DNA from: Lachnospiraceae bacterium | Lineage (GTDB): Bacteria > Bacillota > Clostridia > Lachnospirales > Lachnospiraceae | Assembly (NCBI GenBank): GCA_017540355.1 | Contig: JAFYBE010000117.1 | Location: 1 to 40,257, forward strand | DNA length: 40,257 bases | Direction: 5' to 3' | In this document: positions 25,187 through 39,973 of the stretch, one piece after another | Layout: every line of letters starts with the position of its first letter | Numbering within the stretch: the first letter of the stretch is position 1 | The notes under the pieces: generated by a model | Told to the model about the DNA's origin: nothing | Databases searched by the model: none | What the model saw: the letters and a program-made list of their open reading frames with translations, nothing else | Program-made: the position numbers and the translations under genes

Positions 25187-26542
25187 GTGAAAGATAGAAC
25201 CCAAAAGAGTAAAGATAATACAACAGATAATACCGTAAAAGTCAAAAAGCGCGGGCTTAAGCATGCTGACACGGACAGGGTGATTCGTTGGGACAGACTC
25301 GACAATACAGCCAATCTTTTCCCTGCGATTGCCGGCGAGAACATGACAAATGTGTACCGTATAAGCGTGACGCTTTTTGAAGATGTGGATCCCGTGCTTC
25401 TGCAGCAGGCACTTGATATTGTCCTTCCCAAAATAGACGGATTCAATGTCAGACTTCGCAAGGGCTTTTTTTGGTATTACTTTGAGGAGAACGGCAAGCC
25501 CGCCCCTACAGTTGAGAAAGAGCATACCTTCCCCTGCAGATATATAAGACCCAATCTTAATCACAGCTATCTGTTCAGGGTATCCTATTACGGTAAGAGG
25601 ATCAATCTTGAGGTCTTCCATGTCTTGACCGACGGCATGGGCGGCATCAATTTCTTAAGAGAACTTACATATCAGTATTTAAGGCTTAAGCATGATGAAC
25701 TTAAGACGGATAAGGACAGCCTTACATCCGATACTTCGCTTAATCTTGATGACAGCTTTGTAAGAAACTTTAAAAAGAGCAGACCCAGAGGTTTTGAAAG
25801 AAAGAGAGCGTATCTGATAAAAGGAGAGAAACTTCCTGACGGAGAGTTGGGTCTTATGCACGGATATATGCCGATAGATAAGCTTAAGGAAGTTGCTTCG
25901 GGATATGGAGTGTCCGTCAATACTTATCTTGTGGCATGTTTTGCATACAGTGTATACGTGACATGCCTTAAAAAGGGTCCTTCCGATAAAGCCATAAGAA
26001 TAGCGGTTCCGGTTAATTTAAGACCATACTACGACTCTATAACCACGAAGAATTTCTTTATGATGGTATCTGCGGAATTCCATCCGGATGAGAAAGAATA
26101 CGACTTTAAAGAGGTACTTGAAATAATTGATAAGAGCTTAAAAAGTCAGATCAACAAAGAGCATCTGGAGGATCTGTTCTCTTACGGGGTTGCGAATCAG
26201 CAGAATATCTGGTTAAGGATATTCCCGCTTCCGATTAAGAGTATTGCCATGAGGATAGTGTATAATCAGTCCGCTTTGGCCAATACAACGACCGTAACCA
26301 ATATCGGCAAGATAAAGGTTGATGATATATACGAGCCTTATATAGAGAGGTTCCATGCCAATATCGCGATGTCCAAGGGACAGTTCTTAAAGGGAACGAT
26401 ATGTGCATTCAGAGATGAATATGTATTCACGTTCAGTACGATCTTATCCGACACTTCGGTTGAGAGAGTATTCTTCAGGCATATAGCCGAAGAGGGCGTG
26501 GATGTTAAGATAGAGACTAACGGAGTATTTGTTAATCAATGA
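25187..26542 (+). CDS. Condensation-type acyltransferase (alcohol acetyltransferase-like)
   Basis: 451 residues of the CoA-dependent acyltransferase superfamily. The catalytic HxxxDG motif is FHVLTDGMGGINFL (about 139-152), and a second conserved stretch is AVPVNLRPYYDSITTKNFFMM. The opening RVIRWDRLDNTANLFPAI is the typical start of a group annotated in Lachnospiraceae as alcohol acetyltransferase or hypothetical. It should transfer an acyl group from CoA or a carrier to an alcohol or amine; substrates are unknown. GTG start 22 bases after the pseudo-HD-GYP gene, with only a weak ribosome site (AGGGAACAG). The first 25 residues are lysine-rich and polar. Its stop overlaps the next start by four bases, so the two products are probably made together. 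Confidence 0.75.
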   Translation: MKDRTQKSKDNTTDNTVKVKKRGLKHADTDRVIRWDRLDNTANLFPAIAGENMTNVYRISVTLFEDVDPVLLQQALDIVLPKIDGFNVRLRKGFFWYYFEENGKPAPTVEKEHTFPCRYIRPNLNHSYLFRVSYYGKRINLEVFHVLTDGMGGINFLRELTYQYLRLKHDELKTDKDSLTSDTSLNLDDSFVRNFKKSRPRGFERKRAYLIKGEKLPDGELGLMHGYMPIDKLKEVASGYGVSVNTYLVACFAYSVYVTCLKKGPSDKAIRIAVPVNLRPYYDSITTKNFFMMVSAEFHPDEKEYDFKEVLEIIDKSLKSQINKEHLEDLFSYGVANQQNIWLRIFPLPIKSIAMRIVYNQSALANTTTVTNIGKIKVDDIYEPYIERFHANIAMSKGQFLKGTICAFRDEYVFTFSTILSDTSVERVFFRHIAEEGVDVKIETNGVFVNQ

Positions 26543-27433: not shown

Positions 27434-29039
27434 AGCGGTATCCGAAGGTATAGCCATCGGAGTATTAACTGTATACAGAAAGCATATCAGGACCGGAAGC
27501 ATAACGGGACACCTTGGAAGCGTTGATGAGATAAGCAGATTCAATTCGGCCAGGGCTGAAGCCGTAAAGCAGTTGGAACAGTTAAGGGATACGGCAACGA
27601 AGGAAGGCAATAATGTGAATGTTGCCCTGCTTAATTCCTATCTTGTCATGGCACAGGATCCCGCCTATGTTGAGGCAGTTGAGAAGCGTATCAGGGAGAA
27701 TCCGCTCCCGGCCGAAGTCGCCGTTGAGAAGACAAGAGACAGTATCTGCAGGCTTTTTTCATCTATGGATGATGAATACATGCGTGCCAGGGCAGAGGAT
27801 ATCAGTGATATAAGTGACAGGGTGTTAAGAATCTTAATGGGTCAGAATCATCCTGTTGTCAGTGTGCCCGACGGTAAGGTAATATTGCTTGCGGATGACC
27901 TTACGCCGAGCGAGACGATGCAGCTTGATAAGGACAGTATCCTGGCCTTTGTTACAAGACGAGGCTCTAATCTGTCCCATACCGCCATCCTGGCGCGTTC
28001 GATGAATATACCGGCCATAGTGGCACTTGATTATCCGTCGGATTGTGACGGTAAGATGGCCATTGTCGATGCTTATTCGGGTACGCTTATTATTGATCCT
28101 ACAGAAGCCGAGCTTGATTCTTACCGTAAGAGAAAAGAAGAACTTGAGTTAAGAGAGAAGACTCTGGCGGCTCTTAAGTCTGAGGAGTGTATGACACTGG
28201 ACGGTAAACATATCGGACTTATGGCCAATGTCGGAAGTATAGAGGATATTAAGAAAGCCGTGGAATACGGGTGTGAAGGTATAGGTCTGTTCAGATCGGA
28301 ACTGTTTTATTTGGACAGGGATGATTATCCTTCGGAAGAAGAGCAGTTTAAGGCCTATGTTGAGGCCGTACACATGCTTGACGGCAAGGAACTCATAGTC
28401 AGAACAATAGATATAGGTGCTGACAAGCAGGAGCCTTATATGCAGTTTAAGCATGAGGATAATCCGGCCATGGGCATGAGAGCGGTCAGATATTGCCTCG
28501 GACATAAGAATGTGTTCAGTACACAGCTTAAGGCAATAATGAGAGCCGCGGTTTACGGACCGGTATCGATATTGATCCCTATGCTTATCTCAATAGAGGA
28601 AGTATGGCAGGTACGTTCAGTTATAGCCGAGGCCAAGACCGAGCTTGACAGAGAAGGTAAAGAATACAGGGAATGCAGACTGGGTGCGATGATAGAGACC
28701 CCGGCGGCTGCGGTGATATCGGATCTTATGGCCAAGGAAGTTGATTTCTTCTCAATAGGAACCAATGACCTGACTCAGTATACTCTTGCGGTAGACAGGC
28801 AGAATACCGCCCTTGAATTTATATGCGATTACCATCATCAGGCAATATTACGCCTGTTGAATACAATAATATCCAACGCTCATGATAACGGTAAAAAAGT
28901 TTGTGTCTGTGGAGAACTTGCCGCCGATACGACATTCACCGGCGATCTGCTTAGAATGGGTGTAGATGAATTATCCGTTGCCCCCGGCAGCTTACTTAAG
29001 GTTAAGCAGGCTGTAAGAGGCAGCAGAATAAAGGTTTAG
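27423..29039 (+). CDS. ptsI: PTS Enzyme I (phosphoenolpyruvate-protein phosphotransferase)
   Basis: 538 residues. It takes the phosphoryl group from phosphoenolpyruvate and passes it to HPr. The phosphorylated His186 lies in NLSHTAILARSMNIPAIV; the C-terminal PEP-binding barrel shows GLFRSELFYLDRD, RTIDIGADKQEPY, EDNPAMGMRAVRYCL, GAMIETPAAAV, FFSIGTNDLTQYTLAVDR and CVCGELAAD. The start is ATG 27423 (MQGKAVSEGIAIG, the standard opening), inside the end of the HTH gene; the longer frame from 27375 is overlap only. No HPr or Enzyme II gene is next to it. Length is slightly under the usual 570. Its stop codon overlaps that of the convergent VanW gene. Confidence 0.95.
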   Translation: MQGKAVSEGIAIGVLTVYRKHIRTGSITGHLGSVDEISRFNSARAEAVKQLEQLRDTATKEGNNVNVALLNSYLVMAQDPAYVEAVEKRIRENPLPAEVAVEKTRDSICRLFSSMDDEYMRARAEDISDISDRVLRILMGQNHPVVSVPDGKVILLADDLTPSETMQLDKDSILAFVTRRGSNLSHTAILARSMNIPAIVALDYPSDCDGKMAIVDAYSGTLIIDPTEAELDSYRKRKEELELREKTLAALKSEECMTLDGKHIGLMANVGSIEDIKKAVEYGCEGIGLFRSELFYLDRDDYPSEEEQFKAYVEAVHMLDGKELIVRTIDIGADKQEPYMQFKHEDNPAMGMRAVRYCLGHKNVFSTQLKAIMRAAVYGPVSILIPMLISIEEVWQVRSVIAEAKTELDREGKEYRECRLGAMIETPAAAVISDLMAKEVDFFSIGTNDLTQYTLAVDRQNTALEFICDYHHQAILRLLNTIISNAHDNGKKVCVCGELAADTTFTGDLLRMGVDELSVAPGSLLKVKQAVRGSRIKV

Positions 29040-29845
29040 TTCTTAAGCCATAACCCGACTGTGAGAACACCGTAGTTGGGTGTGGCTGTTATCATTAATG
29101 GCTTGTCGTAAGGATTTGCAAACTTAAAGTCAAGCCTTGTTCCGTCAATGGTTGCGTCCATACCTGCGGGAATGTAGGTAACGGGCAGCCCGTGTTCATG
29201 TCTTTCCAAAGCAGGAATACCTGCTGTCAGTGTACATGCGTACAGTGTCGAAGATACCTGGCATATTCCGCCGCCGATACCCTTTGAATGCTCTTTCTGA
29301 ACAAATATGGGGCCTGCCACGTAGCCGTTCTCTACGGTACGGGGAAGGATTGTATGGGTAAAGGAGAATACGTCTCCCTTATTAAGTACGACTCCGTTGA
29401 TTCTGTTGGCAGCGAGTGTAATGTTGTTGGCACGGGGCAGACTGTCGTCATATTTGGTTGAATATACGGCTAAAATCGTATATCCCGTGGTGTCCGGCAA
29501 AATCTCACCTCTTACCGGCTGAGGTATATAAGCGCCTGCTGCTATCAAAGCGGCTCTTTTCTGCATCTCAGCATCGGCAATTGCAGCCTGTTCGGCAGCA
29601 GCCTGCTTGGCAGCCGCAACTCTCTGCTCCTCAATCTTACGCTCCTCGGCTTCCTTCTGTGCTTTGATTACCTCGGAAGGTATATATCCAGAACCTGATG
29701 ATGCGGATGATACTGATGAAGAAGACGAAGATGAAGAACCTGTATTGGCCGCAAATACGGGAAGGGATGCCGATGAAACGGCACAGGTAAGTATAAGTGC
29801 CGTGGCAGTCGCTCTGTATAATGCGCTAAATCGTTCTTTCAACAT
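29036..29845 (-). CDS. VanW-family secreted protein
   Basis: 269 residues. Signal peptide at about 1-33 (ending SASLPVFAANT), a serine-rich stretch, an Ala/Glu/Lys-rich probable helix (about 55-105), then a VanW domain: AVYSTKYDDSLPRANNITLAA, INGVVLNKGDVFSF, GIGGGICQVSSTLYA (its key Cys), ERHEHGLPVTYIPAGMDAT. VanW domains are found on clostridial surface proteins and in vancomycin-resistance clusters, role unclear; a structural likeness to L,D-transpeptidase-type folds has been noted for the wider group. The G5 or peptidoglycan-binding domains often seen with VanW are absent. AGAGGAAA lies before the ATG. Likely last gene of the leftward operon. Confidence 0.85.
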   Translation of the reverse strand: MLKERFSALYRATATALILTCAVSSASLPVFAANTGSSSSSSSSVSSASSGSGYIPSEVIKAQKEAEERKIEEQRVAAAKQAAAEQAAIADAEMQKRAALIAAGAYIPQPVRGEILPDTTGYTILAVYSTKYDDSLPRANNITLAANRINGVVLNKGDVFSFTHTILPRTVENGYVAGPIFVQKEHSKGIGGGICQVSSTLYACTLTAGIPALERHEHGLPVTYIPAGMDATIDGTRLDFKFANPYDKPLMITATPNYGVLTVGLWLKN

Positions 29846-29882
29846 ATTAATTTCCTCTGACTCTTAAAAGAGAAAACAATCA

Positions 29883-30509
29883 TCAGTTACCGGCTACTGT
29901 GCCTAAAACCTTGGAAGCATAAGTGATGTAACTCACCTTGCTGTGTATAACCTGAATCTTAAGGCTCATATCGCCTGCCTTATATATATATTCGTTACCA
30001 TTCACTTCATAATCCGTTCCGTATATTGATTCCATATCTTCAAGAGATGAACCGATATAAAGTCCTTCGGGTGTTCCGGTAAGGTCATCCGTAAGATATA
30101 CGGCAGAAACCATGTCGCCGGCTTCGGAAGGATAAGTATCTATCTCGAAGTGTCCGTATGTATACATCTTATCAAGACCGTCGAAAGCACAGCTCTTGGC
30201 TTCGAAGTAACTGTCTGCTTCACCGAGTGATGCAAGTACTGTCTCCATCGGCATATCGACTGATACGTCAATTGCACCTGAGGATGTCTCGGCATGATAT
30301 ATATATCCGCCGTCTGTTGTTACAGGAGCAGCCTCTTTAACAGCTTCTGTGCTTTCCTCTGCAACTTCTTCAGTATCTGCAACTGCGGTATCTGTGGCTT
30401 CTTTCTCGATACGCTTGACATCATCCGAAGATGAACCGCATGCCGTGAGCATTGCCGCAAGTATTGCTGTAGCGGCTATAAGTGATAAAACTCTGCTAAA
30501 TTTTCTCAT
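29883..30509 (-). CDS. Putative lipoprotein with acidic linker
   Basis: 208 residues from ATG at 30509, which has TTGGAGGA in front; the longer frame starting at 30632 would overlap the racemase gene and has no ribosome site. The signal ends in a lipobox LTAC (about 20-23), followed by an acidic Thr/Glu/Ala-rich linker (about 30-65). The folded part (about 70-205) holds MPMETVLASLGEADSYFEAKSC and LYIGSSLEDMESIYGTDYEV, two related segments of the kind in BamE-like or DUF-type lipoproteins that begin with a glycine after a helix. It should be anchored to the outer face of the membrane. Function is unknown; I recognise no family with confidence. Confidence 0.75.
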   Translation of the reverse strand: MRKFSRVLSLIAATAILAAMLTACGSSSDDVKRIEKEATDTAVADTEEVAEESTEAVKEAAPVTTDGGYIYHAETSSGAIDVSVDMPMETVLASLGEADSYFEAKSCAFDGLDKMYTYGHFEIDTYPSEAGDMVSAVYLTDDLTGTPEGLYIGSSLEDMESIYGTDYEVNGNEYIYKAGDMSLKIQVIHSKVSYITYASKVLGTVAGN

Positions 30510-30522
30510 AATATCCTCCAAT

Positions 30523-30536
30523 CGGACCCATGTCCG
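30523..30536 (-). promoter_or_regulatory. Small hairpin next to the lipoprotein ribosome site
   Basis: On the minus strand CGGAC-ATGG-GTCCG is a perfect five-pair stem with a four-base loop, ending four bases before GGAGG of the lipoprotein gene. It might tune translation, or be an mRNA processing or stability element. A further weak pairing ACCGAA/TTCGGT lies just upstream. Confidence 0.3.
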
Positions 30537-30580
30537 TAACAACCGAAAACATAAATCTTCTTCGGTAGATTTACATTCTA

Positions 30581-31291
30581 TCACAATAATTCTCTGTATG
30601 CACCCTTCAATTTGCCGAAATCCATGACACATGCACGGGATAAAACAGATAAAACGTCCAAAAATCTGCCGTCAGGCAGCCATTCATCCGCGATTACCGA
30701 CAGTTCGGTACAGCCTAAGATAATGACTTCGGCGCCTTCTTCACGCAGCTCCACGGCAACGGCTCCGAATTTATCCTGCTCTATCGGCTTTCCGCCCTTG
30801 ACGTCATTATATATAAGATCCATTACATATTTCTGTGCCTTGGCTGAAGGGACAACGGCTGAAATTCCGTGCTCTGAAAGAGATTTGTTGAATATTCCGG
30901 ACTTTATCGTGCCATCGGTTGCCATTATTCCGACCCTGCTTACCCCTTTAGACTTAAGATAGTCTGCGCTAAGAAGCACACCGTCAAGTACAGGAATAGA
31001 GGTATTCTTTGCAATCTCATCCCTGAAAAAGTGCGCGGTAACACAGGGGATAGCTATCTCATCCACGCCGGCACCCTCAAGTATTCTGCACGCTTCAATT
31101 ATGGCAGGTGCAGGATTATCCTTGCTGTGGTCTAAGATATATGCGGTCCTGTCGGGTATCGTGGGGCAGTGTTCCACAACCATGTGGATGTGCTCCTGGT
31201 CGCAGGATGCATCCGTCATATCGATTATTCTTTTCATGAAGCTGACTGTGGCCATCGGGCCGAGTCCGCCGATTATTCCGAGTTTGTTCAT
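30581..31291 (-). CDS. Aspartate/glutamate racemase-family protein
   Basis: 236 residues. Opening KLGIIGGLGPMATVSFMKRI, first catalytic Cys in EIAIPCVTAHF, second in VIILGCTELSV; these are the two-cysteine signature of Asp/Glu racemases (the RacD/YgeA-type subgroup rather than MurI). It should interconvert L- and D-aspartate, or a related amino acid, without cofactor. The start chosen is ATG 31291 with AGGA eight bases upstream; the frame extends back to 31351 into the transglutaminase gene without a ribosome site. It lies in the Dlt-like operon, where D-amino acid supply would make sense. Confidence 0.88.
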   Translation of the reverse strand: MNKLGIIGGLGPMATVSFMKRIIDMTDASCDQEHIHMVVEHCPTIPDRTAYILDHSKDNPAPAIIEACRILEGAGVDEIAIPCVTAHFFRDEIAKNTSIPVLDGVLLSADYLKSKGVSRVGIMATDGTIKSGIFNKSLSEHGISAVVPSAKAQKYVMDLIYNDVKGGKPIEQDKFGAVAVELREEGAEVIILGCTELSVIADEWLPDGRFLDVLSVLSRACVMDFGKLKGAYRELL

Positions 31292-31301
31292 ACGTATATT
31301 C

Positions 31302-33236
31302 CTATTGGATTCCGGGGAATCTTCCGTGGTCATATATGTGTGAATTACCATGGGTGACTGAATATGCCGTTATTGTTGCATCATCCATGTATAAGAAATC
31401 ACCGCCGCCTATTCTGGGAGTCGTATCAAAATGTCTCCAGCCTTCGCCTAAATCCACGAGATTCCAGAAGTGTATGATTCTTAAAGGATAAGTATCTATG
31501 ATCATGTTCTTGATACCGAGCACATCAAACATTGCCTTACATGAGCAGCAGTATGAGTAGCAGTCGCCCTTGTGCAGCGCAAGCCCGTAGTATGCAGCCT
31601 TAAGCCAGTCGTCCTTATTGTCGGACTCGGTATAAGCCATATTCTTCTTAACGTACCAGTATATGGCCGAGATCTTCTCATAATCCGTCATAGTAGGATT
31701 TGTGATCCTTGCCACGGTCTGTGAAGCAAGCGCATATACGGTTGCCTCATCGTAATGTTCCTCTATGATTGTAAGTGAGACAGGTATCTCCGTGGTATTG
31801 CCCGCTCTGTCCGTGGCAGAGTAGACGATCGGATATGTTCCGAGTTCCTTGGGATTGACACTGTCTGCTTCTATTTTAAGTACGATATCCTCGTCGCAGT
31901 TATCCGTAACGGTTATTCCGTCCCTGTAACTTATGGGATAGTTCTGCATGATCGTGATATCCTTTGCACCGGTTATTACGGGAGCCTCCGTATCCTTTGC
32001 AAGCGTAAGTACCGATACGGCCTCGGCGGTATTGCCGCCCATATCCGTAGCAACGACTGTCACTTCATATGTTCCTTCATTATCAAAAGAAGGCTCTTCT
32101 TTGAAACTGTAAGTGAGTTCCGTTAAATCCTCAGCCGTCTCAATAAGACTTTCCGGAGTTATGTTCGAGGTCGTGAAGCCCTCAAAATTCTTTACCGTTA
32201 TTACGGGAGCAACTGTATCTTCTATCACAAGCTTTGATTCATATGTACCGCCTGCAAGCTTGATGCTTACGGGATATTCTCCGGGAATGAGCGTATCTAT
32301 GGAATCTGCTGATGTAAGAAGTACGGCACCGTTATTCTCTGCACCCATCTCATCAAGCAGATATGCATCCACCGAAGGGAATTCCTCGCCGGCCTCTATC
32401 GTCACGCTGCTGTGAACGGGGATTATTGTAAGTGAGCTTTCATATGTTGTCTGATTGCCTGACGTATCTGTCAAAAGAAGCGACACTTTGCTTTCGCCGC
32501 CCTTGGTGTAATCGGGTTCGTCAACGAACGCCGCGGTCACTTCGGTCACATCCGTAATATTAGTAAGGAAGTCTTCGGGTGAAGCGCTTGCCCCAAACTC
32601 AAGTGTAACGGGTACGGTTTCGGCTGTGGGAGCCGTTGTATCCTCTACGGTTAAAACGGAGTTATACGTATAGAAGCCGGATGCAAGAGCAACATTATAA
32701 TCTCCGGGCACCTTTGTATCTACTGAAGATATGTCAAAGCCATCCGCAAAGAATACTTCTTTATAAGGGTCTTTGGCGAAATCCGCAGGAGTGACTTCAA
32801 CATCACCCGCCTCTATAATGGCATGAGAATATACCCTTCCTGTATAATCCGTATACACAAAATATCCGCCGACACCAAGACCTGCGAGCAGCGTTATGAG
32901 TAATACCGCTACAAGTACGCCGTGTCCGCGTTTCTTTGCCTTGCCATGCTTTCCGTGTTTACCGTGCTTTTTATGCTTACGCTTTTTCTTATGTTCGCTT
33001 CGTGCAAGGAAATCATTTATATCATCATCTGATGACTCCGTAACAGGCTCACCGGAATCTTCCGCCTCATACGATTCATCCGAATCTTCGTCATTATATT
33101 CCTCTTCGGACGCTTCGTCTGCCTGATTGAAATCCTCCTCGTCCGCATCGTCAAAAACTTCTTCCTCTGCAGCATCCTCGGAGATTTCTTCGTTGTCCAG
33201 ATCGATTATCTCCATATCTTCATCAATCCTGCTCAT
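31302..33236 (-). CDS. Membrane-anchored Ig-domain transglutaminase-like protein
   Basis: 644 residues. The first 80 are extremely acidic (Asp/Glu runs), then a Lys/His-rich stretch (HKKKRKHKKHGKHGKHGKAK, about 81-100), one membrane helix (about 105-130), then about four Ig-like/HYR-type repeats with recurring APVIT...T...GT/YxVxxxATDxAGN (about 135-490), and a transglutaminase core with Cys559 in GDCYSYCC, and the His and Asp of IIHFWNLVDLGEGWRHFDTTP. The topology is cytoplasmic acidic tail, helix, extracellular repeats and enzyme. Bacterial members act as cysteine proteases or crosslinking enzymes; which applies here is not known. It follows asnB by 21 bases. Confidence 0.85.
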   Translation of the reverse strand: MSRIDEDMEIIDLDNEEISEDAAEEEVFDDADEEDFNQADEASEEEYNDEDSDESYEAEDSGEPVTESSDDDINDFLARSEHKKKRKHKKHGKHGKHGKAKKRGHGVLVAVLLITLLAGLGVGGYFVYTDYTGRVYSHAIIEAGDVEVTPADFAKDPYKEVFFADGFDISSVDTKVPGDYNVALASGFYTYNSVLTVEDTTAPTAETVPVTLEFGASASPEDFLTNITDVTEVTAAFVDEPDYTKGGESKVSLLLTDTSGNQTTYESSLTIIPVHSSVTIEAGEEFPSVDAYLLDEMGAENNGAVLLTSADSIDTLIPGEYPVSIKLAGGTYESKLVIEDTVAPVITVKNFEGFTTSNITPESLIETAEDLTELTYSFKEEPSFDNEGTYEVTVVATDMGGNTAEAVSVLTLAKDTEAPVITGAKDITIMQNYPISYRDGITVTDNCDEDIVLKIEADSVNPKELGTYPIVYSATDRAGNTTEIPVSLTIIEEHYDEATVYALASQTVARITNPTMTDYEKISAIYWYVKKNMAYTESDNKDDWLKAAYYGLALHKGDCYSYCCSCKAMFDVLGIKNMIIDTYPLRIIHFWNLVDLGEGWRHFDTTPRIGGGDFLYMDDATITAYSVTHGNSHIYDHGRFPGIQ

Positions 33237-33257
33237 TTTTCTCCCTTTGTGTTAAAT

Positions 33258-35096
33258 CTATACGCTTAAAGAAAACTCTTCGCATAACATGGTCACAGTC
33301 ATGACTATCATAAGATAATCAATTTCGTATGCACCCATGAGTTTGAAGTCTTCCTGTCTGTAATCCTGTCTCATTCTGCTGATAAAGTCGGGATTAAATA
33401 TTCCGTACTTCTTTATTTGAGAATCATCGATAAATTCCTCAATCTTTGTATTCTTTATAAGAGTTGACATGCCCTGTGCCTGGAAGGGGAACTTTACTCT
33501 CTTAAGAATCGGCTCTGGAACGATACCCGCACCGGCTTTTTTGAGTATATATTTCTCGTTCGTACCGTTGATCTTGTATTCATCCGGTATCTGTCTTACG
33601 AAATCCAAAAGTTTCGCATCAAGGAAGGGATGTCTGCCCTCTACCGAATGCGAGAAGAACATGTGGTCACCGTGCTCGATAAGCAGATGATCCGACAGAC
33701 GAAGCTTATAATCTATGTAAGATCTTCTCTTGGCATCGCTTAAGCCCTCGACCTTTTTGATATCAATAGGGCTTTCCTTAAGTGCCGAGAAGTTCTCAAG
33801 ATCGGCCGCAAACTCAGGTGCATAAACCTGCTTATGTACCTTACGGATATCCGAATGTATTCTTTCGTATCTGAAGTACTTATCGCCCCAAAGGTGTTCA
33901 TTGTACTTAAGCTCTTCCTCGGACATGCTGCCTCTCTGCATACCGCGGAACATATCAAGCATATATCCCACATAACCGCAGAAGAATTCATCCGAGCCCT
34001 GACCCGTAAGTACGGCCTTGGCGGGAGATCCCTGTACAAGTGAGCTTAAAAGGAATGCCGCAGCGTCATAGCTTTCCTTGACTGCGGATTCCGTGTGATG
34101 AATAACCTTCCTGAGATTCTCGTATATGCTTTCATCGGTTACGGGAACCGAATAGTGTGTAGACTTAACGCAGTCCTTGACCATCTTCTGGAACTTGCTC
34201 TCATCCAGTTCGTCGGTACCGATTTCTGCGGAAAAAGAGTAGTAGCTGTTAAGCAGGAACTTTCCGATGTAACATGCCACAAGCGAACTGTCCAGACCGC
34301 CGGATATATAGAATCCGATCGGAACATCGGCTTCGAGTCGTCTTGCAACGGCGTCCTTAAAAAGCGACTTAACGTTCTCGACGTAGTATTCCTCACCTTT
34401 ATCTTCTATGTCCTCAGAATAGATCATATCCCAGAACTCGATGTCCTTAAATTCATCTCCCTTGCCGAAACTTAAGATGTGTCCTGCCCTGAGTGCATGC
34501 ACACCTTCAAAGAATGTGGTGGGAGATACGATGCCCGGGAAGTTCATAAGCTGATCGACAGCTTTCATATTAAGCTTTCTGGGTACACCGGGATATTCAA
34601 GGATGGCCTTGATCTCGGAACCAAATATGACACGCCCGTCATATATTGTATAGTAAAGAGGGCAGATGCCCACCTGGTCTCTTATAAGGAATAAACGGTC
34701 AATCTTTGCATCATATAAGGCGATGGCAAACTGTCCGTTAAGATACTTGGGAAAATCAAGTCCGTACTCATCATACATATGAGGGATAACTTCAACATCG
34801 GTACGTGTTCTGAACACATAACCCTTGGCCATGAGTTCATCCCTTAATTCATTGTGGTTGAATATCTCTCCGTTGCAGACCATAACAACGCTCTTATCGC
34901 CGTTGTATAAAGGCTGCATTCCACCTTCAAGATCGATAAAGCTCAGTCTCTGAAAGCCCAATGCTACTTCTTTATCAATCACGCTTCCGCTCCCGTCGGG
35001 TCCTCTGTGAGCAATTGCTTTCATCATATTGCCAAGGACTTCTTCAGAGAAGGCATGAGTATTTTCTTTATTATATATTCCGCATATTCCGCACAT
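33258..35096 (-). CDS. asnB: Asparagine synthase (glutamine-hydrolysing) family amidotransferase
   Basis: 612 residues. N-terminal glutaminase with the nucleophile Cys2 (MCGICGIYNKE) and conserved AHRGPDGSGS; C-terminal ATP-pyrophosphatase SGGLDSSL (about 269-276) followed by TGQGSDEFFCGY and EGRHPFLDAKLLDF. It uses glutamine nitrogen and ATP to amidate a carboxyl group, classically aspartate to asparagine. Family members in Gram-positive bacteria (B. subtilis AsnB, L. lactis AsnH) amidate cell-wall precursors instead, and this position between a Dlt-like set and a transglutaminase and racemase makes that plausible here. CGGAGA precedes the ATG. Confidence 0.92.
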   Translation of the reverse strand: MCGICGIYNKENTHAFSEEVLGNMMKAIAHRGPDGSGSVIDKEVALGFQRLSFIDLEGGMQPLYNGDKSVVMVCNGEIFNHNELRDELMAKGYVFRTRTDVEVIPHMYDEYGLDFPKYLNGQFAIALYDAKIDRLFLIRDQVGICPLYYTIYDGRVIFGSEIKAILEYPGVPRKLNMKAVDQLMNFPGIVSPTTFFEGVHALRAGHILSFGKGDEFKDIEFWDMIYSEDIEDKGEEYYVENVKSLFKDAVARRLEADVPIGFYISGGLDSSLVACYIGKFLLNSYYSFSAEIGTDELDESKFQKMVKDCVKSTHYSVPVTDESIYENLRKVIHHTESAVKESYDAAAFLLSSLVQGSPAKAVLTGQGSDEFFCGYVGYMLDMFRGMQRGSMSEEELKYNEHLWGDKYFRYERIHSDIRKVHKQVYAPEFAADLENFSALKESPIDIKKVEGLSDAKRRSYIDYKLRLSDHLLIEHGDHMFFSHSVEGRHPFLDAKLLDFVRQIPDEYKINGTNEKYILKKAGAGIVPEPILKRVKFPFQAQGMSTLIKNTKIEEFIDDSQIKKYGIFNPDFISRMRQDYRQEDFKLMGAYEIDYLMIVMTVTMLCEEFSLSV

Positions 35097-35134
35097 CTTA
35101 TTCTCCGCCGGATGAAATAATCGTCCGGTTTAAC

Positions 35135-36184
35135 TTATTGTATATTGTAGAGTTTCTTCTGATACTCTATCTCGTCATTATAATCCTGTATCTTCTGATC
35201 CCATGAAGCCGACAGAGCAGCATCGCTTCTTCTGTCGGGAACATTAAACTCGTTTTGCAGTATGGGACCAATATAATCCGCACACTTTACGGCACCGCTT
35301 AAGTTCATATGAAGACCGCCGTCGTATGTGTCCGTGTTATAATCTATACCTATCTCATCTGCCACGTCAAGGAAATTAATGTATTTAATGCTATATTTGT
35401 CGGCATAGGCCTTAACCTGCTCATCCCATTCGGGATACCAGTAGGGGTAAAGGCTCGGTGCCTTGATAAATAAAAGCTGTATATTGTTCTCTTCACAGCA
35501 TGTTCTTATCTTGTCCAGATATTCCCATGCTTTGTCTCCGAAACTGTAGTCTCCCAAAGGCTTTGCAGGCGGAATGTTCTCGGCCGGAAGAGCATCGACT
35601 CTCATATAGTAGCCGTTGTGTGTAACCTTTTTGTGCTTAAACATATATTCAACATCGGTTGAAGTAAGCTCGTTCCATCTTGAATGGTATCTGAGTATCG
35701 GGAATACATATTCTATAAGATGCTCATCTCCGGTGTTCGAAGCCTTGATACAGCCGAGCTTATACTTTGACCATTTCATTCCGTCTATGGTCATTCGGTT
35801 ATATGCTTCGCTTCTTGACTCGTCAAACTGTAGTGACTGTATGTTAAATACAACCACATCGGGCTTGTTGTATCTTATCGTATCTTCAAGCAGATAATAA
35901 GACTGGAAGATATACTGCTCGGCACTTCCTCTTATATAACTGTTGATTCCGTAGTTCTCCCATAAGGTAACGGGAGAGAAGTTCTCATATACCTCGCAGT
36001 CCCCGATGAATATTACGTTAAAATCCTTTGACTTCTCATCATAATATTCCGATACCATACCGCCTTCCACGATATCGTCGACATATTTGGGCATAAGCAG
36101 TCTCTGTGCAAGGAAGAGAATGCCAAGCACTATGATTACCGATATGCATGCAATTGTAATGTTTTTAGCCTTATTGTTCTTCAT
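35135..36184 (-). CDS. SGNH-like surface acyl/aminoacyl transferase partner (DltD-like position)
   Basis: 349 residues. One N-terminal membrane helix (about 9-28), then an extracellular SGNH-type domain: block I reads FIGDCEVYENF with Cys63 where GDSL-type enzymes carry the nucleophilic Ser, and a late DGGLHMNLSG supplies the Asp-x-x-His-like pair. Other features are GSAEQYIFQSYYLLED and KAPSLYPYWYPEWD. It follows the MBOAT gene by 6 bases, as DltD or AlgX/PatB-type partners do, so it should work outside the membrane, passing the acyl group to the final acceptor. Similarity to classical DltD is in position and fold class rather than obvious sequence. I recall close relatives also having GDC, but cannot verify it. 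Confidence 0.75.
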   Translation of the reverse strand: MKNNKAKNITIACISVIIVLGILFLAQRLLMPKYVDDIVEGGMVSEYYDEKSKDFNVIFIGDCEVYENFSPVTLWENYGINSYIRGSAEQYIFQSYYLLEDTIRYNKPDVVVFNIQSLQFDESRSEAYNRMTIDGMKWSKYKLGCIKASNTGDEHLIEYVFPILRYHSRWNELTSTDVEYMFKHKKVTHNGYYMRVDALPAENIPPAKPLGDYSFGDKAWEYLDKIRTCCEENNIQLLFIKAPSLYPYWYPEWDEQVKAYADKYSIKYINFLDVADEIGIDYNTDTYDGGLHMNLSGAVKCADYIGPILQNEFNVPDRRSDAALSASWDQKIQDYNDEIEYQKKLYNIQ

Positions 36185-36190
36185 GGTTAT

Positions 36191-37735
36191 CTAGAACCTG
36201 TTATATATAAACTGTGATGAGTCATAGCCTATTCCGTATATTCCGAATATGAGCGTTGCCGTAAGCAAAAGCGTCCATACGATGAATCTTACGGGATAGG
36301 GATTCTTTCTTAATTTGTCTCTTACGCTGATATTATCTTTTTCTTCGGATGAACTCACAATGAATACGATGATTAATGCAACGCCCGCCACAATGTAGTC
36401 GGCAGCGGACAATCCGATATTTAAAAGCGCTCCCTTTTCCATTAAGGAGAAGCTTCCCTTCTTAAAGATTGAGATCAAAAGTCCAACCGTGTCCCTGACA
36501 TCGACAAAGCAGTCAAAAAGATTGAGCACGCATACCAAAATGAAGGTGCGGATTATCATAAATGCCTTGTATATTGGGCCGTCGGCGAACGCAAAACGCT
36601 CATGAAATTTCTTGTATGCGGGTGAAAGTTCCTCGGAAATCGTAAGCACAAGGAAGTTAAGCATTCCCCATACTATAAAGTTTATGGTTGTTCCGTGCCA
36701 TATGCCCGTGCAGAACCATACAACGAAGCTTGAAAGATATACGGGGAGTTTGCCGCCCGCGCTGTCGCTTATATGCTTCCTTGCCCATTTTGATAAACGT
36801 AAGCTTAATGAGCTTGTTGACATGGGATAGAAGACATAGTCGCGGAACCAGCTGCACATTGATATGTGCCATCTGCGCCAGTAATCGGCAAGCGATGTCG
36901 AGAAGTAAGGGCGGATGAAGTTCTCCTTCATGTTTATGCCCAAAGCTTCGGCTATACCTATAGTGATATCTATTCCTCCGGTGAAGTCCGCATATAATTC
37001 AAGCGTATAGAGGATCAGAGTCATAAGGACATAACCGCCTTTATAGGTCGACGGGTCGCTTATAAGTGTGCTTACACCCATAAGCAGTCTGTCGGCAATA
37101 ACAAGCTTTTTAAAATATCCCCAGAGTATACGTTCCATTCCTCTGCTAAAGACCGAGAAGTCGAAGTTATGCTCGGAAAGCAGTGAAGGAGCCAGGTCAT
37201 CATATCTGTTGATCGGGCCCTGAATAAGCTGGGGAAAAAAAGTGATAAAGAGAGCGTACCTCGGCAGACTGCGCTGCGCATCGATACTCTCTCTGTATAC
37301 GTCGATAAGGTATCCGACCGATTGGAAGGTATAGAAGGAAATTCCTAAGGGTATAAGTATACCGGTAAACTTAAGTCCGGCCAGCTTTACCGTGGCCAGT
37401 ATACCTAAGTTAAGCAGCAGTGTAAGGGTAAAAAAGATAACACTTTTCCTTGCACCGGCCTTCTTGTATGCCTTCTTTTCATCGACGGACATCTCGTTCT
37501 TATGCAGTTTTACATATTCTTTGATGGCTTTGTTGTTGTCTTCGATCTTTATCGCACCAAACCATACGGTTACAACACTCACGCCGATGAATATCAAAAA
37601 TCTTACATCGGCCATAGCGTAGTATGTAAGTGAGGTGATAAGCAGAAGCGGCATCTGCAGCTTCTTAGGCACTGTATAGTAGAGGATAAAGAGAATAATG
37701 AGCAATCCTATAAAGCCATAGGATGTGAAAAGCAT
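36191..37735 (-). CDS. MBOAT-family O-acyltransferase (DltB-like)
   Basis: 514 residues with about 11 membrane helices. It has the MBOAT core: PLGISFYTFQSVGYLIDVYR, FFPQLIQGPINRY, DYWRRWHISMCSWFRDYVFYP and the catalytic His347 in TGIWHGTTINFIVWG. Such proteins move an acyl or aminoacyl group from a cytoplasmic thioester carrier to the outer face of the membrane, as DltB does for D-alanine. The neighbours are the carrier protein (7 bases upstream), the adenylating enzyme and an SGNH partner, completing a Dlt-like pathway. The acceptor polymer is unknown. GGAGTGATC precedes the ATG. Confidence 0.92.
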   Translation of the reverse strand: MLFTSYGFIGLLIILFILYYTVPKKLQMPLLLITSLTYYAMADVRFLIFIGVSVVTVWFGAIKIEDNNKAIKEYVKLHKNEMSVDEKKAYKKAGARKSVIFFTLTLLLNLGILATVKLAGLKFTGILIPLGISFYTFQSVGYLIDVYRESIDAQRSLPRYALFITFFPQLIQGPINRYDDLAPSLLSEHNFDFSVFSRGMERILWGYFKKLVIADRLLMGVSTLISDPSTYKGGYVLMTLILYTLELYADFTGGIDITIGIAEALGINMKENFIRPYFSTSLADYWRRWHISMCSWFRDYVFYPMSTSSLSLRLSKWARKHISDSAGGKLPVYLSSFVVWFCTGIWHGTTINFIVWGMLNFLVLTISEELSPAYKKFHERFAFADGPIYKAFMIIRTFILVCVLNLFDCFVDVRDTVGLLISIFKKGSFSLMEKGALLNIGLSAADYIVAGVALIIVFIVSSSEEKDNISVRDKLRKNPYPVRFIVWTLLLTATLIFGIYGIGYDSSQFIYNRF

Positions 37736-37742
37736 TAAATGA

Positions 37743-37970
37743 TCACTCCTCGTTAATTCTGTCTATCAGCGCACTGATCGCAGCAGCCGAATTGAAATTG
37801 TCGGGGATGATATCCTTGGCCTTGATCTTGATGTCGAACTTATCGGTAAGCTCGGTTACAAGTCTTACTATATCCATGGAATCAAGAATCTTGTCGTCGA
37901 TAAGGTGCTGCTCGTTCTCAAAATCCACATCGGGATGAAGGGACTTAAGTATCTCCATTAATTCGTTCAT
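37743..37970 (-). CDS. Acyl/peptidyl carrier protein (DltC-like)
   Basis: 75 residues. The phosphopantetheine attachment site is Ser31 in LDSMDIVRLVTEL, with the four-helix pattern and length of a carrier protein. It should carry an activated acyl or aminoacyl group as thioester from the adenylating enzyme encoded upstream to the MBOAT protein encoded downstream. AAGGAGGA lies nine bases before the ATG, a strong site fitting a protein needed in quantity. Confidence 0.92.
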   Translation of the reverse strand: MNELMEILKSLHPDVDFENEQHLIDDKILDSMDIVRLVTELTDKFDIKIKAKDIIPDNFNSAAAISALIDRINEE

Positions 37971-38002
37971 TTTATAAATCCTCCTTGGAAGTCTGTTTTC
38001 TC

Positions 38003-39523
38003 TTAAGCTTCTCCGAGATACATCTTTTTAAGAGTAACTCTGTCTATCTTGCCGTTGCCTGTAAAAGGCATGCTCTCAAGCTTATATGTACGCCCCGGAA
38101 GCATGTATCTGGGAAGCTTCTCTTTAAGGCGTCCGTCAAGCTCTCTTGGCTCAATATCTCCTATATAATACAGGATGATCAGCTTTTTGTCATTGTCATA
38201 TATGCAGGCAGCCATCTTGATCACATCCATTGCATCCACGTCGGCCTCAATCTCACCGAGTTCGACTCTGTGGCCCATGTGCTTAATCTGGTAATCCTTG
38301 CGCGATATGTATATAAGCTCGCCTTTATCGTTATACTTACCGATATCACCGGTTCTGTAGATGATCTCGGGATAAGCCTTGTTAAGCGGATTCTGTGTAA
38401 ATACCGCAGCCGTACGCTCGGGATCGTTATAATATCCCAGTGTCACGGAAGTGGCCCTTATGCAGATCTCGCCTTCTTCGCCTTTGTCCGCAAGCGTATC
38501 GTCATCCTTGATAAGCAGAATCTCGCGATTGTCGAAAGGCTTTCCGATAGGAATCGGCTCATCATCCGCAAAGTCTCTGTTAACTCTGTAATAGCAGCAC
38601 ATTCCGGTTCCCTCGGTCGGACCGTAGAGGTTGGTGAATGTTGCATTCGGAAGGGTCTCTTTCCAAATCCTGAACTGTTTTATCGGGAAGACTTCGCTTC
38701 CGAAAGCTATGGTATGCAGATATTCGGGCTTGATATCGTCAAAGGTAGAGAATGCGCTCACCATTGTGAGTGCCGATACAACCCAGCATATCGTATTGAT
38801 CCTATGTTCGTTGAGATACTCAATAAGCTTATAAGGCATTGAGAAAAGCTGCTTGGGTATCAGATAATCCGTGGCACCGAACTTAAGCGTCGGATAAAGT
38901 TCCTTAAGGCAGGCGTCGAAGTAGAGAGGAGACTGATTGCCGAAAACGGTATCCTCGTTAAAATCAAGTATCTCCGATAGCTGCTCTATATAATCTATAA
39001 CCGAACGGTGACATGCCACAACACCTTTCGGAACTCCTGTCGAACCTGAAGTAAAGACAATATATATAGGATCTATATCGATCGCCTTGTCATGAATCTC
39101 TTTAAGCACGGCATCATCGCGCTTTGTATCGGCAACGATATTGTCATAGAGAATGACATCCGTGCCGCTTTGCTGCAAATCGGACGCCTTGCTTGCCGTG
39201 ACCCTGTCACAGATGATAAGAGGTGTGCGAACATTATCAAGTATAAGCTTGATCCTGTCTGCGGGCATCTCCTCATCGATCGGTACATAGAAGCATCCGG
39301 CCGATACAACTCCGAGGAAGGTTGCAACTTCCATCGGTGACTTGCTCATGAAGACTACGATGGGCTTTTTGTATATTCCTCTGTTGGCAATATACGTGCC
39401 TATGCTTCCCGACAGTTCATACACATCCGAAAAAGTAAGAGCAACCGTTCCGTCGCTGTATGCAGTCTTATCCGGTTTTATACGAACTATATTGTTAAGA
39501 TAATCTATCACATTGTTATGCAT
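38003..39523 (-). CDS. Amino acid adenylation enzyme (DltA-like)
   Basis: 506 residues of the ANL superfamily. Core motifs: IYIVFTSGSTGVPKGV (ATP loop, about 148-165), NLYGPTEGTGMCCYY (A5), YRTGDIGKYNDKGELIYISR (A7/A8), KHMGHRVELGEIE and the C-terminal lysine in FTGNGKIDR (A10). It activates a carboxylic or amino acid with ATP and loads the adjacent carrier protein. Overall length and layout match D-alanine-carrier ligases and free-standing adenylation domains; the substrate pocket cannot be decoded by eye, so D-alanine is likely but not certain. ATG 39523 is chosen because AGGTGAT lies four bases before it; GTG 39532 gives three more residues. Gene order here is A, C, B, D rather than the classical A, B, C, D. 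Confidence 0.88.
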   Translation of the reverse strand: MHNNVIDYLNNIVRIKPDKTAYSDGTVALTFSDVYELSGSIGTYIANRGIYKKPIVVFMSKSPMEVATFLGVVSAGCFYVPIDEEMPADRIKLILDNVRTPLIICDRVTASKASDLQQSGTDVILYDNIVADTKRDDAVLKEIHDKAIDIDPIYIVFTSGSTGVPKGVVACHRSVIDYIEQLSEILDFNEDTVFGNQSPLYFDACLKELYPTLKFGATDYLIPKQLFSMPYKLIEYLNEHRINTICWVVSALTMVSAFSTFDDIKPEYLHTIAFGSEVFPIKQFRIWKETLPNATFTNLYGPTEGTGMCCYYRVNRDFADDEPIPIGKPFDNREILLIKDDDTLADKGEEGEICIRATSVTLGYYNDPERTAAVFTQNPLNKAYPEIIYRTGDIGKYNDKGELIYISRKDYQIKHMGHRVELGEIEADVDAMDVIKMAACIYDNDKKLIILYYIGDIEPRELDGRLKEKLPRYMLPGRTYKLESMPFTGNGKIDRVTLKKMYLGEA

Positions 39524-39538
39524 CTTTATCACCTGTTT

Positions 39539-39973
39539 TTACTGCTTGCCCGTAGAACCGAAGCCGCCTCTGTCGTTACCCTCAAGGTGCTGTACTTCGT
39601 CAAACTCTATCTTGGGCTGATTCTCCATTATACGGAACTGGCAAACTCTGTCATTGACCGAGATATGTGTATCCCTTACGGCATATGCCGGCATAAACCA
39701 CTGATCGTTGTCTCCGCAGTATGAGCAGTCAACCACACCCTGATGGTTGGTCTGTATGATACCGAAGTTCTTGTATGTCGAACTTCTGGGAACGATGTGG
39801 GCTTCGTAACCCTTGGGAAGCTCCATGGCAACACCTAAAGGAATCAGCTTCCATTCACTGGCCTTCATATCTATATCTTCGGCACAACGTAAGTCGATCC
39901 AGTCGGACTTTCCGTCGATATAAGTGAGTTTTTCTATCTTATCCGTGAAATATTTGATCTTTATCTTTTCCAT
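39539..39973 (-). CDS. dut: dUTPase (deoxyuridine triphosphatase)
   Basis: A 144-residue trimeric-type dUTPase that converts dUTP to dUMP. The five motifs are visible in order: IDLRCAEDI (1), [12 protein letters not shown] (2), [14 protein letters not shown] (3), NDRVCQFRI (4) and [10 protein letters not shown] (5, one residue short of the classical RGxGGFGSTG). Motif 3 has Cys-Ser-Tyr-Cys where DSDYRG is usual, so the catalytic Asp is kept in VVD but its surroundings differ. It lies first in the leftward operon, 5-15 bases before the adenylation gene; a nucleotide-pool enzyme there may be incidental. AGGAAGGA lies eight bases before the ATG. Confidence 0.85.

Follow-up and report, generated by a model that had tools for sequence, protein, structure and literature searches.

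Relationship to described surface acylation systems

The closest described relatives of the locus analyzed here are the Dlt system of teichoic-acid D-alanylation (DltA, DltC, DltB, DltX and DltD), the PatA/PatB system of peptidoglycan O-acetylation and the RacD/AslA/AsnH enzymes of the D-Asp cross-bridges of lactic acid bacteria. The locus occupies positions 29036 to 39973 of a 40,257-nucleotide stretch of Lachnospiraceae bacterium DNA (assembly GCA_017540355.1, contig JAFYBE010000117.1), the whole of which is referred to as the window, and it probably encodes a self-contained module for surface aminoacylation in the Lachnospiraceae, the cargo being an acidic amino acid, with D-aspartate the most likely and D-glutamate the next. 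The genes of the span are the following:

39539-39973, minus strand: dUTPase-like gene (dut), first gene of the span
38003-39532, minus strand: A, stand-alone DltA-like amino-acid adenylating enzyme (Pfam AMP-binding, E 9.6e-60) with the pocket D-A-K-S-A-G-L-G-M-K
37743-37970, minus strand: C, carrier protein with an attachment-site Ser (PP-binding, 22.0 bits, cut-off 20.8)
36191-37735, minus strand: B, MBOAT protein (MBOAT, E 4.5e-21) with the C-terminal acyl-shuttle hexapeptide FIYNRF
35135-36184, minus strand: D, membrane-anchored SGNH-fold protein with Cys (GDCEV) in the nucleophile position
33258-35096, minus strand: AsnB-type glutamine-dependent amidotransferase, optional member (TIGR01536, 432.2 bits, cut-off 267.1)
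31302-33236, minus strand: TG, membrane-anchored protein with immunoglobulin (Ig)-like repeats (Bact_surface_Ig-like, E 3e-9) and a transglutaminase core domain (Transglut_core, E 5.7e-9)
30581-31288, minus strand: Rac, pyridoxal phosphate-independent Asp/Glu-type racemase (PF01177, E 6.3e-42; TIGR00035, 208.9 bits, cut-off 93.1)
29883-30509, minus strand: Lipo, lipoprotein of CAP-associated/YjgB/BLIP-like fold with a SCAF-motif Cys
29036-29845, minus strand: VanW-domain protein (PF04294, E 4.6e-45), locally linked and probably outside the module

The ten genes are separated by gaps of 6, 32, 7, 6, 38, 21, 13, 71 and 37 bp, and the start codons of Rac and Lipo are our own choice of ATG. The initial annotation of this DNA had named most of these families, and the open reading frames are indeed present and match them in Pfam and NCBIfam (AMP-binding, PP-binding, MBOAT, Asn_synthase plus GATase, Transglut_core, Asp/Glu racemase and VanW), although its gene list omitted the lipoprotein gene between the racemase and VanW.

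As in the Dlt system, a stand-alone adenylating enzyme, a carrier, an MBOAT protein and an SGNH-fold partner are encoded in one putative operon. Yet a plain Dlt operon was rejected because the Dlt models stayed below their cut-offs and the pocket differed. Protein A scored 280.3 bits with the DltA model TIGR01734 (cut-off 559.85) and 315 bits with AA-adenyl-dom (cut-off 317.4), and the scores were likewise below the equivalog cut-offs for DltC (TIGR01688, 21.9 against 52.35 bits) and DltB (TIGR04091, 157.9 against 375 bits). The SGNH partner proposed for D holds as far as the fold is concerned, since the AlphaFold model of D has it, but D has no match to Pfam DltD (PF04914) at E 0.01 and its GDSL matches are sub-threshold only. 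None of 25 module genomes had a PF04914 match over the cut-off, one (G080) remaining below it at 20.1 against 22.7 bits, and the B. subtilis and L. lactis controls were detected. The locus further departs from Dlt in its acidic-type pocket, in a shuttle motif carried by the MBOAT protein instead of DltX, in the Cys nucleophile of D and in the addition of a racemase, a transglutaminase, a lipoprotein and an optional AsnB. In spite of the shared gene content, we therefore regard an ordinary divergent D-alanine Dlt system, with the racemase and AsnB as incidental riders, as quite unlikely: every Dlt model falls far below its cut-off, the two residues that are Leu and Cys in a dlt-type operon are Lys or Arg (position 239) and Gly in the pocket, and the racemase is a core gene whose presence tracks the pocket.

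PatA/PatB resembles the locus in the C-terminal FXYXXF Tyr shuttle of its MBOAT protein and in its SGNH partner, as outlined in PMC12148441, but PatA takes acetyl-CoA and uses no carrier, whereas the locus encodes a carrier and an SGNH protein with a Cys nucleophile. The lactic acid bacteria system shares with it an aspartate racemase, encoded in one operon with the D-Asp ligase, and an enzyme of the asparagine synthase type, AsnH, which is described as amidating D-Asp after its attachment (PMC4155827). There, however, an ATP-grasp ligase attaches D-Asp to the peptidoglycan precursor inside the cell, whereas here adenylation and a carrier are combined with MBOAT/SGNH transfer. Such a module was not recognised in any prior description in our literature searches. 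As for the acceptor, the CDP-glycerol polymerase family PF04464 exceeded the cut-off in 13 of the 25 module genomes, four of which had nothing but weak partial matches, and no match was found in the genome of the window; a wall teichoic acid of the poly(glycerol phosphate) type should therefore not be taken for granted in this role.

Conservation and limits of the module

Relatives were collected in two surveys. In the first, an MBOAT search of 200 genomes of the family from which 40 regions were taken, D exceeded 400 bits in 27 of the 39 new loci. In the second, a species-level genome collection was scanned with the D alignment; a D relative was encoded in at least 585 loci, the best 80 of which were used. 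The hosts were mostly labelled Lachnospiraceae or other Clostridia, with one Gastranaerophilales, and included the named isolates Agathobacter ruminis JK623, Pseudobutyrivibrio ruminis DSM 9787 and Mobilitalea sibirica DSM 26468. Altogether 120 loci were annotated (119 relatives and the window), D exceeding 400 bits in 108 of them and in 106 after dereplication; 63 dereplicated loci with at least 7 kb flanking D on each side, chosen for holding D, are termed full loci. A phylum-wide scan of 299 genomes found a D match at 1e-30 in five, with scores above 500 bits only in the genome of the window and in one other of the same family; two matches outside the family scored 112 and 169.

Among the full loci, B and D were present in all 63, C and TG in 61, A in 60, Lipo in 55 and Rac in 52, and all seven genes occurred together in 45. 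This core recurs in many genera and its order is shuffled from locus to locus (TG-Rac-A-C-B-D-Lipo, the commonest, in 22), which argues that the gene set is more than a chance association. When neighbouring open reading frames of at least 80 aa within 4 kb were clustered at E 1e-12, a procedure that would overlook short or divergent genes, no further conserved gene appeared: no other neighbour was found in more than seven loci, and among the 14 largest clusters one member was situated within a module. The limits of the module are drawn on this basis. It consists of A, C, B, D, TG, Rac and Lipo with AsnB as an optional member (18 full loci), in changing surroundings.

The initial annotation had interpreted the span as a set of ten genes in which a Dlt-type route was joined by a racemase, AsnB, a transglutaminase and VanW. 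The route and the first three partners are supported, and conservation covers the seven genes and AsnB instead of ten. Of the two wall-active partners it had proposed, TG belongs to the core and VanW does not: VanW was rejected as a member because it occurs in 3 of the 63 full loci (L070, L115 and, weaker, L109), and the dUTPase because it occurs in two.

The adenylation pocket and the likely cargo

The ten pocket positions of A in the window were anchored through an alignment with LgrA. The pocket DAKSAGLGMK is present in 68 of 89 dereplicated A proteins, and Lys or Arg occupies position 239 in 84 of them. In a dlt-type operon among our loci (L150), whose A protein scores 544.7 bits, slightly below the DltA cut-off, and which encodes a separate small protein ending in FIYNGF, the same columns read D-L-L-S-L-C-L-V-A-K, with Leu at 239. 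Asp197 and Cys269 of BcDltA are 72 residues apart and Cys269 is reported to contribute to the D-Ala preference (PMC4176424). The A protein of L150 also has a Cys 72 residues past the pocket Asp, and the two columns were equated on this equal spacing; at that spacing the window has Gly, and the 86 A proteins above 780 bits have Gly, Val or Ala. The first surfactin domain, DAKDLGVV, given as a predicted Glu/Asp domain (PMC10548584), likewise has Lys239, and the codes listed in PMC12283262 are DAQDLGVVDK for Glu/Gln and DLTKVGHVGK for Asp/Asn. Because of Lys/Arg239 and the Gly where DltA has its selectivity Cys, the pocket likely accommodates an acidic side chain, in line with the initial annotation, which had suggested a cargo other than D-Ala on a Dlt-type route from carrier to surface and had looked to the comparison with DltA.

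Three further loci (L064, L065 and L069) contain other MBOAT cassettes, in which the A pocket reads DVKSMSLCNK or DVKSLSLCNK and D is distant or absent; by these features they appear to be a further Dlt-like type.

The racemase and its covariation with the pocket

The racemase was already tied to the pathway in the initial annotation, and its place in the core agrees with this. Its closest solved relative is the aspartate racemase of P. horikoshii (1jfl, 155 bits), and its score as a glutamate racemase is only 33.6 bits. In the alignment the two catalytic Cys are kept in 72 of 72 proteins, and these Cys together with the equivalents of Arg48 and Lys164 in 71-72 of 72.

Of the 56 full loci with Lys/Arg239, 50 also have Rac, as against none of the four without it (Fisher p 4e-4, a value that ignores phylogeny). 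The five loci lacking Lys/Arg239 have neither racemase nor AsnB, and no Rac match at E 1e-15 was found in four tested genomes with other pockets. Of 11 tested Lys/Arg239 loci without Rac, seven lie in genomes with a match elsewhere at E 1e-46 or better. Three of the five loci that lack Lys/Arg239 have lost Asp235 as well (V, S or N), so that their C-B-D-TG set may carry a different type of acyl group, and the modules without Lys/Arg239 suggest an exchange of cargo on the same export machine. Sets of TG-C-B-D(-Lipo) without a racemase and with a different A pocket were seen in L053, L055, L059 and L060, and the aligned Lipo proteins of L053, L055 and L060 do not have the lipobox Cys.

A cargo of D-glutamate, supplied by Rac or by the glutamate racemase MurI (TIGR00067) with the other steps of the pathway unchanged, is possible but rather unlikely. 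It would fit the Lys239 shared with the surfactin domain, the locus L051, in which Lys239 occurs without Rac and MurI is encoded on the opposite strand at a distance of about 0.6 kb from the module, and the five tested genomes that have Rac and no MurI. Rac itself, however, is of the aspartate type by its scores, and 12 of the 17 tested genomes whose locus includes Rac also have MurI, so that a dedicated racemase for D-Glu would be redundant there. Over all 25 tested D-bearing genomes MurI was above the cut-off in 19, for which reason a housekeeping glutamate racemase role of Rac in every genome was rejected; none was over the cut-off in the remaining six (G135, G190, G153, G187, G197 and G111).

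A cargo of another anionic kind, be it an acidic amino acid in the L-form, cysteate or a similar sulfonate, or a different anionic amino acid, is very doubtful; Rac would then do something else or make D-cysteate. Lys239 would suit a sulfonate, and all 20 Rac relatives scanned match the cysteate racemase model CuyB at 1e-10 or better. Still, Rac receives practically equal scores from the CuyB and aspartate-type models (210 and 209 bits), which means that the name may be over-wide, and our clustering of neighbours revealed no further gene of any kind that recurs in the module.

Several points count against D-aspartate as the cargo. The pocket code is a rule built for nonribosomal peptide synthetase domains, mostly with L-amino acids. 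The window pocket matches DAKDLGVV at only 4 of its 8 listed positions, and the Glu/Asp label of that domain is itself given as a prediction (PMC10548584). The pocket reads as more Glu-like by these codes, because the Asp code has its Lys at 278 and not at 239, while the racemase is Asp-like. Rac passes the CuyB cut-off (NF052483, 210.3 bits against 190). It might also serve D-Glu supply in genomes without MurI, since MurI was not over the cut-off in five tested Rac genomes and was not found in the genome of the window, which is about 80% complete. Regarding the covariation, two of the 11 genomes with Rac-less Lys/Arg239 loci have only a weak Rac match and two have none, and the seven matches encoded elsewhere (38-51% identity) may not all be orthologs. 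The comparison group consists of four full loci and one partial locus, and the A gene of L055, being on the other strand, may be no part of the module.

The transfer proteins

The attachment-site Ser of C is kept in 100 of 100 aligned relatives, and the C-terminal F-x-Y-x-x-F of the MBOAT protein and both of its His in 104 of 104. The Tyr of this motif is described as carrying the acyl group in PatA and DltX, and MBOAT-SGNH pathways other than Dlt as using an acyl-CoA donor with the motif on the MBOAT protein and no carrier or DltX (PMC12148441). A carrier and an MBOAT-fused shuttle motif co-occur in this module.

The nucleophile position of D is Cys in 107 of 108 aligned proteins (26 of 27 in the MBOAT-found subset), the exception being the divergent L061 with Ser. 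Since a Cys thioester would favour aminolysis, the product may be an amide formed on an amine acceptor. The GSCFA family takes its name from a motif with a Cys. This family appears as an SGNH family without known activity in the list of PMC9487903. Lipo is tied to the SGNH step by natural fusions of D and Lipo in two loci (L043:501-2036 and L131:1795-3336), and its SCAF-motif Cys is kept in 87 of 87 proteins. TG has one hydrophobic segment, and its Cys, His and Asp are kept in 87 of 88 (one row is gapped).

AsnB

AsnB was found in 34 of the 106 dereplicated loci: 30 with a Lys/Arg239 A protein, none with another A protein (five loci) and four without a readable one. Because of this recurrence a chance neighbour was rejected and AsnB is an optional module member, not only a local neighbour; the initial annotation had linked it to the pathway without this qualification. 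Its Cys1 and PP-loop are kept in 32 of 32 aligned proteins. Further TIGR01536 matches exist in the genome of the window (three), and at least one besides the module copy in eight of nine tested AsnB-positive genomes. The pocket does not differ between loci with AsnB (DAKSAGLGMK in 24 of 30) and those lacking it (45 of 61, a group that includes the loci without Lys), so amidation probably follows loading, much as AsnH acts after attachment.

Proposed pathway

The genes, their conservation, the catalytic and pocket residues and the limits of the module are observed; from these we infer the substrate, its stereochemistry, the order of the steps and the acceptor, and propose the following scheme. 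Rac would make the D-isomer from L-Asp or L-Glu, and A would adenylate this D-acidic amino acid, with Asp235 binding the amino group and Lys239 contacting the carboxylate of the side chain, and load the aminoacyl group onto the Ser-linked phosphopantetheine of C. The MBOAT protein would take it over from C onto the Tyr of the FIYNRF shuttle at its own C-terminus, on the outer face, where D would accept it on Cys63 as a thioester and hand it to a surface polymer with the help of Lipo. Where present, AsnB would work inside the cell, probably on the loaded group, amidating its free carboxylate and so converting a net-neutral group into a cationic one. TG would act outside on the modified polymer or on a partner. 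An unlikely extension of this pathway, which we put forward with little confidence, is that the Cys-thioester SGNH protein makes an amide in place of an ester on a polymer amine, that AsnB sets the surface charge by amidating the aminoacyl group on the carrier and that A is a replaceable, cargo-setting cartridge of a constant machine exporting acidic D-amino acids.

Neighbouring genes

Beside the module, positions 4250-25164 of the window encode signalling genes on the plus strand, namely two GGDEF proteins, two HD_5 proteins and one response regulator. They are followed on the same strand by a 451-aa protein without Pfam match (25187-26542), which adjoins a DUF6320 membrane protein. By eye, this protein has an HVLTDG motif, which we take to resemble that of condensation or alcohol acetyltransferase enzymes.

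Biological implications

Dlt is known for the delivery of D-alanine. If the proposed pathway is correct, a Dlt-type route would have a second cargo in acidic D-amino acids, in some cases amidated, and the Cys nucleophile together with the design of a carrier plus a fused shuttle would probe the generality of the MBOAT-SGNH mechanism. The module, which is common in gut and rumen Lachnospiraceae, would provide them with a means of adjusting the charge of the envelope in genomes in which our search found no Pfam DltD, and surface-bound D-Asp or D-Glu originating from it would be expected in the gut.
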